Of a stretch of DNA of 64,000 nucleotides, positions 6,945 through 55,755 are shown one piece after another (the stretch's first letter is position 1; the number at the start of each line of letters is the position of its first letter). The notes beneath the pieces are model-generated. The model saw nothing but the letters and a program-made list of their open reading frames with translations, ran no database searches and had not been told where the DNA came from. Origin of the DNA: Ilumatobacteraceae bacterium (GTDB taxonomy: Bacteria; Actinomycetota; Acidimicrobiia; Acidimicrobiales; Ilumatobacteraceae); assembly GCA_018401375.1 (NCBI GenBank), contig JAGYKR010000004.1, forward strand, positions 62,001 to 126,000, written 5' to 3'. A program made the position numbers and the translations under genes.

Positions 6945-7390
6945 TCAATCGGTCCGGTAACGCCCGAGGATGCGCTTGCCTAAAGAGGTTTTGTGGACCT
7001 CATCGGCGCCGTCGTAGATCCGAGCGGCGCGCTCGTGGCGATACCAGTAGGACAAGATCGTGTCGTCGGTAACTCCGAGAGCGCCGTGGACTTGGATCGC
7101 GGTGTCCACGGTTTTAGCGTCGTGTTCGGCGGCCCAGATCTGAATGATCTGACGGTCCGCCAGAGTTTCACCCTATGGGGTGATCTGTCGCTCATTTGCG
7201 TGGGCACACATGAGATCGAAGGAACGTTGTGCAACACCGAGCCAGCGCATGCAGTGATGGATACGTCCGGGCCCAAGACGCTCCTGGGCGATTGCGAAAC
7301 CGGCACCTTGGGGACCCGAGCAGGTTTGCTGCGGGGACCCGACATGACTGGTAGATGATCTCGCCATGGCTCGCATGTCCCGAACCGGCA
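6945..7390 (-). pseudogene. Acyl-CoA dehydrogenase remnant (frameshift, in-frame stop, internal deletion, no N-terminal half)
   Basis: Reading leftwards, one frame gives [18 protein letters not shown] (about 7390-7315), the next gives [18 protein letters not shown] and [16 protein letters not shown] up to an in-frame TAG at 7173-7175, then GETLADRQIIQIW and QVHGALGVTDDTILSYWYR, ending KTSLGKRILGRYRTD with stop at 6945-6947. These are collinear pieces of one acyl-CoA dehydrogenase C-terminal half. A one-base insertion near 7308-7318 shifts the frame, the TAG cuts it, and roughly 45 residues are missing between IQIW and QVHG (the stretch that normally spans the helical C-terminal domain). The FAD- and substrate-binding N-terminal half is absent. 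Confidence 0.85.
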
Positions 7391-7606
7391 TGCCCCATCA
7401 CCGACCCCACTCCGCTCATGGCTAACTCACCCCCAACGAGTTCGCCCTACAAAGGACCACGACCCACCAACCCCAAGCCGCGTATCAACTGGACCGCTAA
7501 ACGGGGCCCCCTCATTTTCAAATCCGATGAGAGCGGGTTATTGGGCCACAGCCTGCCGATGACGCCACCCGAGCCGCTAGGGCCGAAGGTCACCGGGGGG
7601 ACTACG

Positions 7607-8470
7607 GTGATTTCGGTGAGCGATGAACCAAGAATCTACGGAGGCGGCGAGGGAGCAGATCCTGCTCTGAAACGGGTTCGGGTCCGTCATTTCGGCCAAG
7701 CCAAAGCCAACGGAATCAAGATCACAGGTCTCACCAGCTATGACTTTTTGTCGGCCCGGATCTTTGATGATGCTGGAATCGATTTCCTGCTGGTTGGTGA
7801 TTCTGCAGGTAACGCAGTGTTCGGTTACGACACGACATTGCCGGTCACGATCGATGAGTTGGTTCCGCTCTGTGCCGCAGTGGTGCGTGCCGTTCGCCGC
7901 GCCCTAGTAGTCGCCGATATGCCCTTCGGTTCATACGAGAACGGCCCGGAAGAGGCGCTGCACACGGCGATCCGCTTCATGAAAGAAGCCGGGGCTCACG
8001 CTGTGAAACTCGAAGGTGGGTACCGCAGCGCCAAACAGATCCGACGGATCGTGCGGGCGGGAATCCCTGTCATGGCTCACATCGGGTTCACCCCGCAGAG
8101 CGAGCACGGTCTCGGAGGGCACATCATCCAAGGCCGTGGGGAAGGCGGGGCCAAAGAACTGATGGATGATGCTTTGGCCGTCCAAGAAGCGGGTGCATTC
8201 GCAGTGGTGCTTGAGATGGTGCCATCTGAGGCGGCAGCGGAAGTGACGGCAGCGCTGCAGATCCCAACGATCAGCGTCGGGGCGGGGCCGAGTTGTGATG
8301 GACAGCTGATGGTGTGGACCGATTGGGCCGGTTTCACCCGCGGTCGGATCCCACGATTCGTCAAGCAGTACGCCCAGATCGGCCAGACCCTTCACGACGC
8401 TGCGGTGACCTTCCGTGAAGAAGTGGAGGCGGGCGTCTACCCGGCTTCAGAACACGAATACCGGGACTGA
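7607..8470 (+). CDS. panB: 3-methyl-2-oxobutanoate hydroxymethyltransferase
   Basis: First committed enzyme of pantothenate synthesis: transfers a hydroxymethyl group from 5,10-methylene-THF to 2-ketoisovalerate to give ketopantoate. Visible family signatures are [30 protein letters not shown] (Asp as Mg ligand), [24 protein letters not shown] and VVLEMVP, covering a whole TIM barrel. The frame is open back to 7355, but the upstream codons run antisense to the acyl-CoA dehydrogenase remnant; the GTG at 7607 has GGGGGG six bases upstream and gives 287 residues, the normal length. An ATG at 7418 would add a Pro-rich 63-residue extension with no good ribosome site. Confidence 0.93.
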
Positions 8471-8502
8471 CAGGGTTCGCGATCGCTGTACGGACGCGAA
8501 AA

Positions 8503-8634
8503 GGTCCGTGAGGTGAGTCCCGACAGCAGGGACAGGCTTTGGATCAGGAGCCCCTCCACAATGGACATCGGAGACTTTCGTCCCAAACGAACCTCATAAA
8601 GAGGACTGGATCCCTTTTGGTCACCTCACGGACC
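8503..8634 (-). ncRNA. Candidate structured small RNA of unknown class
   Basis: A perfect 14-base inverted repeat (8503-8516 with 8621-8634) closes a 132-base unit. Inside, further perfect stems nest cleanly: 8517-8521/8529-8533 (7-base loop), 8541-8545/8609-8613, and within that 8554-8557/8570-8573, 8577-8580/8588-8591 (7-base loop) and 8592-8595/8601-8604 (5-base loop). It lies in the 234-base gap between convergent panB and leuS and is not coding. The minus strand is preferred because an AT-rich TTAATTACT sits just before the stem and four Ts follow the closing stem; the fold works on either strand. A miniature inverted-repeat element or a bidirectional terminator are alternatives. Confidence 0.4.
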
Positions 8635-8704
8635 AGTAATTAATGATCGCGCCGGGCCCGCTCGAGCAATAGAGGCAAAGGTCCCGATCGCTGTGAACAC
8701 GTAT

Positions 8705-11566
8705 TCACAAGACGATGTTGACCATTCGCCCGGGCACCACAATCACTTTGCGGATGCTTGCTCCATCGAGGACTTCGATCACTCGGGGGTCAGCCAATGT
8801 CGCTGCTTCCACCGCTGCAGCATCCGCCTCTGCGGACACCGTCACCCGGCTGCGAACCTTGCCGTTGATTTGCACAGGGTATTCCACCGTGTCGTCCACG
8901 AGCAGCGCCGGGTCAGCGTTCGGGAAGGCTTCATAGGTGATGGTTTCGGTGTGTCCAAGACGCTGCCACAGTTCTTCGGCCACGTGCGGTACCAACGGGG
9001 CCAGCATCAGCACCATTGGCTCGGCCACCTCACGGCAGGTGGCGTTGAGGCGAGTCACGTGATTGTTCAGTTCGATCAGTTTGGCGATCGCGGTGTTGAA
9101 GCGCAGGGCGTCCATCTCGGTGCGGACCGCATCGATAGTGCGATGTAGCAACTGGCGGGTGTTGGGGTCGGCTGGCGCGTCCACCACGGTCACTGCCCCG
9201 GTGGACTCGTCGACCATATTGCGCCACAGTCGCTGCAAGAAGCGGTACATGCCCACCACGTCGCGGGTTTCCCAGGGACGGGAGGCATCGAGGGGGCCCA
9301 TAGCCATCTCGTAGAGCCGCAAGGTGTCGGCCCCGTAGGCCTCATACATCTCATCGGGAGAGACGGCGTTTTTCAGGCTTTTGCCCATTTTGCCCCACTC
9401 CCTGGTGACCGGTTGGCCGTCATGGACGAAGCCGTCGGGGGTGCTCGCCACCTCGGTGGCTTCCACGTACATGCCCCGTTCGTCGGTGTACGCGTCAGCG
9501 AGGATGTAGCCCTGGTTGAACAACCGGGTGTACGGCTCTTTGGAGGACAAATGGCCGAGGTCATACAGCACCTTGTGCCAGAACCGGGCGTATAAAAGGT
9601 GCAGTACAGCGTGTTCCACGCCACCTACGTACAAGTCCACGCCGCCGGGATGATCGGGGCGCTGATCGGTCCGCGGACCCATCCAGTAGCGCTCCACCTC
9701 GGGATCCACAAACACCTGGTCGTTATGGGGATCGAGATAGCGCAATTCATACCAACACGATCCCGCCCATTGCGGCATGACGTTGGTGTCACGACGATAG
9801 GTCTGAAGCCCGTCACCGAGATCGAGTTCCACTTCCACCCAATCGGTCAAACGATCGAGGGGGCTCTCGGGATCGCTGAACTCATCATCGGCCGCAAAGG
9901 TGCGGGGGGCGAAACTGTCGGTCTCAGGCAGGGCGACCGGCAACATTTCGGCGGGAATGACATGGGCGATGCCGTCGGAGTCGTACACGATGGGGAATGG
10001 CTCTCCCCAATAGCGTTGCCGAGAGAACAACCAATCGCGCAACTTGTAGGTGATCGTGCCGTTGCCGTGGCTGTTGGCTTCCAGCCAGGCGGTCATCTTC
10101 GATACGCCTTCAGCCACATCGCTGATCGTGTTCAGATCCACCGAGCTATTCGACGAGTTCACATAGGGGGCGTTACCCACGTAGGCCTCGGGCCAGGCAG
10201 CGGTATCGAGACTGGGTTCGATGCCATGCTCAGCAAACCATTCTGCCGGCGGGTTCTGAATGGCAGGGATCGGGAGATCGAACATCCGGGCGAACTCAAA
10301 GTCGCGTTGATCCCCGCAGGGCACCGCCATGATGGCCCCGGTGCCGTAACCCATCAGCACATAATCTGCGATCCAGATCGGGATCTCGGTGCCGGTCACT
10401 GGATTGGTCGCAAATGATCCGGTGGAAACCCCGGTTTTGGTCCGTGTCGCATCTTGACGGTCCACATCTTTTTTGGCTCCGGCCTCGCTCCGGTAGGTGG
10501 CCACCGCTGCGGCCTGATCGGAGGTGGTCACAGCGTCGACGAGCGGATGTTCAGGAGCGAGCACCATGAACGACGCGCCAAACAGCGTGTCGGGCCGGGT
10601 GGTGAACACGGTGATCGGGCCGGCCGGGGAGTCAAAGTGAACGTTTGCTCCATGGCTGCGGCCGATCCAGTTGCGCTGCATGGAAATGATCGCAGGCGAC
10701 CACTCCAAGAGATCCAGATCGTCGATCAGCCGGTCCGCATAGGAGGTGATCCGCATCATCCATTGGCGCATCCGGCGCTTGAACACCGGGTAGTTCCCGC
10801 GGTCGCTGCGTCCGTCAGCAGTCACTTCCTCGTTAGCCACCACGGTCCCGAGCCCCGGACACCAGTTGACCGGTGCTTCGCTGAGATACGCAAGGCGGTG
10901 GTCGTCGATGATCTGGCGTTGTTCGATCCGGCTGAGAGCGGACCAGGCCCGTCCGCCGGGAGTTGGGCGTGCACCGGCGGCATACAGATCTTCGAGCTCA
11001 CTGATCGGTCGGGCTCGAGCCTGATCTCGGTCGTACCAAGAGTTGAAGATCTGAGAGAAAATCCACTGGGTCCAGCGGTAGTACTCCGGGTCTGTGGTGG
11101 AGATCGAACGGCGAGGGTCATGGGACAGCCCGAGACGGCGCAACTGCCGACGCATGTTGGCGATGTTCGCATTCGTGGTGATCGCTGGGTGTTGGCCGGT
11201 CTGCACGGCGTACTGCTCTGCGGGTAGGCCGAACGCATCGAAGCCCATCGTGTACAACACATTGCGTCCCGACATGCGTTGGAAACGGCTGTAGACATCG
11301 GTGCCGATATAGCCGAGGGGATGCCCAACGTGGAGTCCGGCCCCTGAGGGATACGGGAACATGTCAAGCACGAACAGTTTCTCGCCACGGGCCGCCACAG
11401 CAGTTGGATCAGCGAGAGATCCGGCTGGGTTCGGGGTGGCAAAGGTGCCCTCTGCATCCCAGTACTCCTGCCAGCGGGTCTCGATATCCCCGGCCATCAC
11501 CGAGGTGTATCGATACTCGGGAGTCTCCGAACTTACGGGCTGGTCGTTGCTGCTCTGGTCGCTCAT
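8705..11566 (-). CDS. leuS: Leucyl-tRNA synthetase
   Basis: Class I aminoacyl-tRNA synthetase of about 953 residues, charging tRNA-Leu. The HIGH-type motif appears as [17 protein letters not shown] and the KMSKS motif as GKMGKSLKN, the KMGKS variant being the form I know from actinobacterial LeuRS. Between them lie a CP1 editing domain ([22 protein letters not shown] carries the conserved editing threonines) and a normal leucine-specific region; the C-terminal end [14 protein letters not shown] is intact. The frame is open to 11626, but the ATG at 11564-11566 (MSDQSS) is the more likely start because the upstream 20 codons precede any conserved sequence. No T-box is visible in the short leader. 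Confidence 0.97.
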
Positions 11567-11675
11567 AGCGTCCGTCAGCCTATGGGCCTGAAGCGATAGG
11601 AAATCGATCTGGCTCCGGCACACCATCAGCGGTAAGAATGCACCAGTTCCATTCGCCGCATAGGAGATGACCTAC

Positions 11676-55382: not shown

Positions 55383-55755
<373 letters not shown>

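Follow-up and report, generated by a model that had tools for sequence, protein, structure and literature searches.

A predicted structured small RNA with a DosR-type promoter box between leuS and panB in the Ilumatobacteraceae

Background

The DNA analysed here, referred to as the window, is a stretch of 64,000 nucleotides (nt) from an Ilumatobacteraceae bacterium (assembly GCA_018401375.1, contig JAGYKR010000004.1, positions 62,001 to 126,000). The gap between its leuS and panB genes contains an element of 132 nt at 8503–8634 that is best read as a stand-alone gene for a highly structured small RNA (sRNA), encoded on the minus strand and likely to belong to a DosR-type regulon. The element appears to represent a previously undescribed family of structured sRNAs of a known functional kind. 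That it is a real minus-strand RNA is close to certain, that this RNA is under the control of a DosR-type regulator is very likely from the promoter comparisons, and the two taken together are likely. An earlier sequence-only reading had suggested a stable, multibranched non-coding RNA, with a mobile miniature element (MITE) as its main rival. The strand, the promoter and the DosR-type box are additions to that proposal.

Results

A conserved three-way junction on the minus strand

The minus strand of the element folds at -65.5 kcal/mol (z -5.7), and none of 200 dinucleotide shuffles folded as well. The plus strand reaches -58.1 kcal/mol, with a z of -3.9 against dinucleotide shuffles. An RNA read from the plus strand was rejected for this poorer z-score, because the G-U pairs suit the minus strand, where G-U intermediates in the homologs are consistent with a minus-strand RNA, and because the conserved promoter reads in the minus direction.

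One fold is common to the copies, a three-way junction of the stems P1, P2 and P3. P1, of about 14 bp, closes the ends of the RNA. In the window it is formed by the 5' strand GGUCCGUGAGGUGA (8621–8634, minus strand), the predicted 5' end of the RNA being at about 8634, and the 3' strand UCACCUCACGGACC (8503–8516). These are the arms of the perfect 14-base inverted repeat that had first drawn attention to the element, and the repeat is indeed there; within the window it is the only perfect one of 14-mers whose arms are at most 150 nt apart. Ten of the 14 pairs of P1 are changed on both sides in homologs. P2 is a long arm (8541–8613) with a base conserved as GGGA..CAG/CUG.UCC, represented here by GGGAUCCAG at 8606–8614 and CUGAUCC at 8541–8547. 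Its apex is variable in length and longer in the window copy than in most homologs. P3 is a short hairpin, GUCCC(UGCUGUC)GGGAC (8517–8533), in which 3 of the 4 modelled pairs are changed on both sides and 100% of cells are paired. Directly after P1 follows a conserved 3' tail, UUUUCGCGUCCG (8491–8502), with the consensus YCGCGYCCGG. Most copies match at least 8 of its 10 positions (chance about 5% each), and the tail is only partly unpaired in the predicted folds. Beyond it there is no conserved hairpin that could be a terminator; the hairpins found there vary among genomes. A further outer stem, P0, pairing an upstream GCGCGA with the TCGCG of the tail, was rejected, as genomes G034 and G135 have the tail without GCGCGA.

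In an alignment of 18 sequences, 91% of cells are paired and 29 of 40 pairs are changed on both sides, with a covariation score of 0.40, compared with 0.15 in shuffles and no more than 0.07 when the partners are slid. This alignment was fitted to the covariance model and its figures are therefore biased toward it; the covariation of P1 is also seen on a plain MAFFT alignment, which is not model-fitted. Compensatory changes in relatives, which the sequence-only reading had named as a check, are thus present. All six stems that it listed occur exactly where it placed them. As minus-strand RNA helices, the homologs bear out the outer stem, 8517–8521/8529–8533 and 8541–8545/8609–8613. The stems 8554–8557/8570–8573, 8577–8580/8588–8591 and 8592–8595/8601–8604 are absent from the minus-strand fold, in which their region forms a single long arm. 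The multibranched RNA that it proposed is nonetheless upheld by the shared junction, the covariation across 18–19 homologs, the conserved promoter described below and the failure of Rfam to match the element, which agrees with its remark that no riboswitch, SRP, tmRNA or RNase P signature could be recognized.

Homologs in the family

Covariance searches found 19 copies, of 89–132 nt, in 17 Ilumatobacteraceae genomes; named neighbours of leuS assign the group to this family. A DNA search of 100 relatives returned two true orthologs, in G025 and G043. The covariance model built from three sequences was then run on 221 family genomes and gave 15 copies in 14 of them. A second model, from 15 sequences, added G037, G053 and, with two copies, Ilumatobacter sp. 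MO_167.B34 (G805). Matches at L005 (G049) and L143 (G050) were discarded as coding false positives. Outside the family no match was found among 397 genomes of the order and 296 of the class, with only 9–13 candidates per genome scored. Many relatives plainly lack the RNA in the gap downstream of leuS, so its presence is patchy.

Two genomes carry additional copies. In MO_167.B34 a class-V aminotransferase gene lies between two RNA copies of the same orientation (L086, 3482–3609 and 4800–4921), of which the second lacks a good DosR-type box. The second copy in the complete genome of G018 (L028, 1501–1610) is far from leuS and has a variant box, GGGCCATTGGTCCC.

A promoter with a DosR-type box

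In the sense of the RNA, the copies are preceded by a promoter with a -35 element that is mostly TTGnnn, a spacer of 17 nt and a -10 element that is mostly GAnnnT. The distance from the -10 to P1 is 7–9 nt (14–15 in one subgroup). An automatic search over 16–18 nt, with a small bonus for 17, chose the 17-nt spacer in 17 of the 19 copies; its pick for the window copy was 18 nt, and there the register was reassigned by comparison with the homologs. The -10 of the window is then GATCAT at 8643–8648, with the position and 17-nt spacing common to the homologs, and the -35 is TTGCTC at 8664–8669, both on the minus strand.

Directly 5' of the -35 lies a 14-bp box, GGGACCWWNGGTCCC, of the kind of the DosR/DevR palindrome. 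Boxes were scored over a 12-position DosR core, which we take to be the published motif. At least 8 of the 12 positions are matched in 16 of the 19 copies, and at least 10 in 13 of the 19 (chance 0.0005 each). Promoters regulated by DosR/DevR have a palindromic box, GGGACnWWnGTCCC, that overlaps or adjoins the -35; the window box, GGGACCTTTGCCTC (8672–8685, minus strand), matches 10 of the 12 positions and adjoins it. DosR sites follow a 20-bp consensus, and the promoter-proximal site overlaps the -35 (PMC5360333, PMC5999986, PMC3029386). The distance from the box to the predicted start is about 36–39 nt. In DrrS (MTS1338, ncRv11733), a DosR-regulated sRNA of Mycobacterium tuberculosis, the DosR site is 34 bp upstream of the start and overlaps the -35 (PMC5360333), and the distance seen here is also in line with DevR promoters generally (PMC3029386).

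A DosR-like regulator and its own boxes

The genome to which the window belongs (2.23 Mb in 47 contigs) encodes just four GerE proteins, and one of them is of the DosR type. This protein (C43:42610–43266) matches DevR (3c3w) in a search of the PDB with an E of 4e-76 (258 bits, the next being VraR at 141). It retains the EKT.KNY helix with the equivalents of K179, K182 and N183, which are core DNA-binding residues of DosR (PMC5999986). Its gene is divergent from that of a PAS-HisKA_3 kinase.

A box matrix was built from the RNA boxes of other genomes, with the window copy excluded, and scanned over 1.63 Mb of this genome. Its 11 best matches include two strong DosR-type boxes (L206, 1439–1452 and 2559–2572, on contig C43), one between dosR and the PAS histidine kinase gene and one on the 5' side of the gene for a multicopper oxidase nearby. 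The oxidase has no clear nitrite reductase identity. The boxes of dosR, the kinase and the oxidase likely mark the core of a DosR-type regulon. Elsewhere in the genome, on contig C44, a perfect GGGACCAAGGTCCC (L224, 15432–15445) is found between an AMP-ligase-like gene and a gene for a 220-aa protein without a Pfam match.

Autoregulation predicts boxes 5' of dosR. The dosR-like loci of 30 relatives were examined, three of which were clipped by contig ends, leaving 27 testable. In 22 of the 27 the RNA-box matrix finds boxes, mostly near-perfect, at 49–74 nt on the 5' side of dosR. For 21 of these 22, no more than 0.3% of 600 random 250-nt control windows score as high. This prediction of dosR promoters from RNA promoters is the strongest evidence for the putative DosR-type control.

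Discussion

How might such an RNA work? A DosR/DevR-type response regulator bound to the box at 8672–8685 would recruit σ70-type RNA polymerase at the adjacent -35. Transcription would start at about the first base of P1, and the 5' end would therefore lie inside the protective 14-bp stem, as it does in the 5' stem of DrrS. The transcript would then adopt the three-way junction that the covariation shows, followed by the conserved tail. Extrapolating from M. tuberculosis, hypoxia or nitric oxide may be the inducing signal, and a stable RNA would be produced while the DosR-type system is active. It may finally act in trans, as a post-transcriptional branch of the DosR-type response, pairing with mRNAs most likely through the tail YCGCGYCCGG or the junction; we give an even chance that it is a trans-acting, base-pairing regulator.

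DrrS, retrieved by literature search and long-lived owing to its 5' stem (PMC5360333), is the closest known counterpart. Both RNAs have a single DosR-type site at the -35, a similar distance from box to start and no obvious intrinsic terminator (PMC5360333). Their lengths are comparable (about 109 nt, against 89–132 nt here), and the 5' end is within a stem in both, here by prediction; the subgroup with the gap of 14–15 nt fits less closely. The folds set them apart. DrrS has a short 5' hairpin of 5 bp and a long imperfect stem, whereas in the RNA described here the 5' and 3' ends pair with each other and so close a three-way junction.

Alternatively, the three-way-junction RNA, still induced by a DosR-type regulator, would act through a bound protein or ligand and not by ordinary pairing, which is unlikely. 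For example, it might sequester the ribosome or RNA polymerase when oxygen is limiting. In most copies the strands of P1 include a GAGGUG core resembling a Shine-Dalgarno sequence and a CACCUC core resembling an anti-Shine-Dalgarno sequence.

Several observations weigh against a DosR-controlled sRNA gene. The predicted sRNA is present in only 17 of the 221 family genomes searched, so it is not essential. The window box is among the weaker ones, and a genome-wide count of the palindrome GGGACNNNNGTCCC was not enriched over a reversed control. DosS senses through a GAF heme domain, while the kinase beside dosR has PAS domains and may respond to a different signal than the mycobacterial system. 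Across the copies, box quality follows the presence of DosR only as a trend (p 0.08). A close DosR ortholog was not found in the RNA-bearing genomes G016, G181, G034 or G015, and the first two have good RNA boxes. It is these two genomes, together with the numerous NarL-type regulators of the larger genomes, that would favour a real RNA with a GGGAC box read by some other NarL-family regulator, in which case control by hypoxia or nitric oxide would not apply. The occurrence of this box ahead of dosR itself in most relatives, and the mere four GerE proteins of the genome studied here, make this improbable.

Is the RNA a gene in its own right, or is it the leader of a gene that follows it? In the window the upstream, co-directional neighbour is leuS, for leucyl-tRNA synthetase (8705–11626, minus strand; Pfam PF13603 and others), and the convergent neighbour is panB (7355–8470, plus strand; PF02548, E 6e-103; these are open reading frame bounds, and the true start is probably internal). 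The RNA usually follows leuS on the same strand at a distance of 54–154 nt. It is within 2–4 kb of leuS in G018 and G015, and in G025 and G043 a BldD-like gene is inserted. The genes downstream are convergent (panB, class-V aminotransferase or ABC-transporter genes) or co-directional (AurF-like diiron, SDR, P450-like or AMP-ligase-like; the P450-like, SDR and ligase labels were assigned by eye). A cis-acting leader or riboswitch, sensing a ligand from the 5' untranslated region of the downstream gene, would suit the frequent use of three-way junctions by riboswitches and the genomes with a same-strand gene about 85–200 nt downstream, namely G043 and G025 (AurF-like diiron), G034 and G135 (SDR), G016 (P450-like) and G181 (AMP-ligase-like). 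However, the downstream gene is convergent in the window, G180, G179, G018, G037 and G053, no same-strand downstream gene is conserved and no single regulated pathway is evident. The leuS side is conserved, and the genes on the downstream side vary and are in many cases convergent, which argues for a stand-alone RNA and makes a leader distinctly improbable.

A 6S-like role, in which the RNA would bind RNA polymerase, is more doubtful still. The closing stem, the bubble with a hairpin on the 3' side and the distal arm recall the general layout of 6S RNA (RF00013), a slot that seems empty, as RF00013 has no match in 61 relatives. However, the element does not match the 6S model even at permissive thresholds, has no large open bubble and is too short, and its patchy presence is ill-suited to a housekeeping RNA. 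More widely, neither the window element nor the ten homologous loci scanned gave a match at the gathering score of any Rfam 15 family, permissive thresholds gave nothing meaningful for the window element, and the Rfam matches of L003 and L004 are at chance level only. The element does resemble the candidate structured RNAs of Actinobacteria in Rfam 15 in being conserved, intergenic and structured. Separately, the window contains an ordinary bacterial RNase P class A RNA at 55384–55750 on the minus strand.

Finally, a mobile miniature element of the MITE or REP type with the 14-bp inverted repeat as its ends is very improbable: the perfect ends, the nearby 10-base direct repeat CGATCGCTGT (confirmed at 8480–8489 and 8685–8694) and the two copies each in G018 and G805 would speak for it, but its own genome has a single copy, the leuS neighbourhood is kept across genera, and the element has covarying helices in its interior and a promoter of its own. 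The asymmetric direct repeat, 13 nt away from one inverted-repeat arm but 50 nt away from the second, is incidental and no target duplication, and its right copy starts within the flank of the DosR-type box.

Conclusions

In the tuberculosis bacterium, a regulator of the DosR type turns on the genes for dormancy at low oxygen. Should the RNA prove to act through a protein or ligand, dormancy outside the mycobacteria would have a new RNA component. A conserved, covarying RNA with a DosR-type box in the free-living Ilumatobacteraceae would suggest that DosR-type systems have repeatedly recruited stable sRNAs, and would provide a further, harmless system in which to ask what such sRNAs do.
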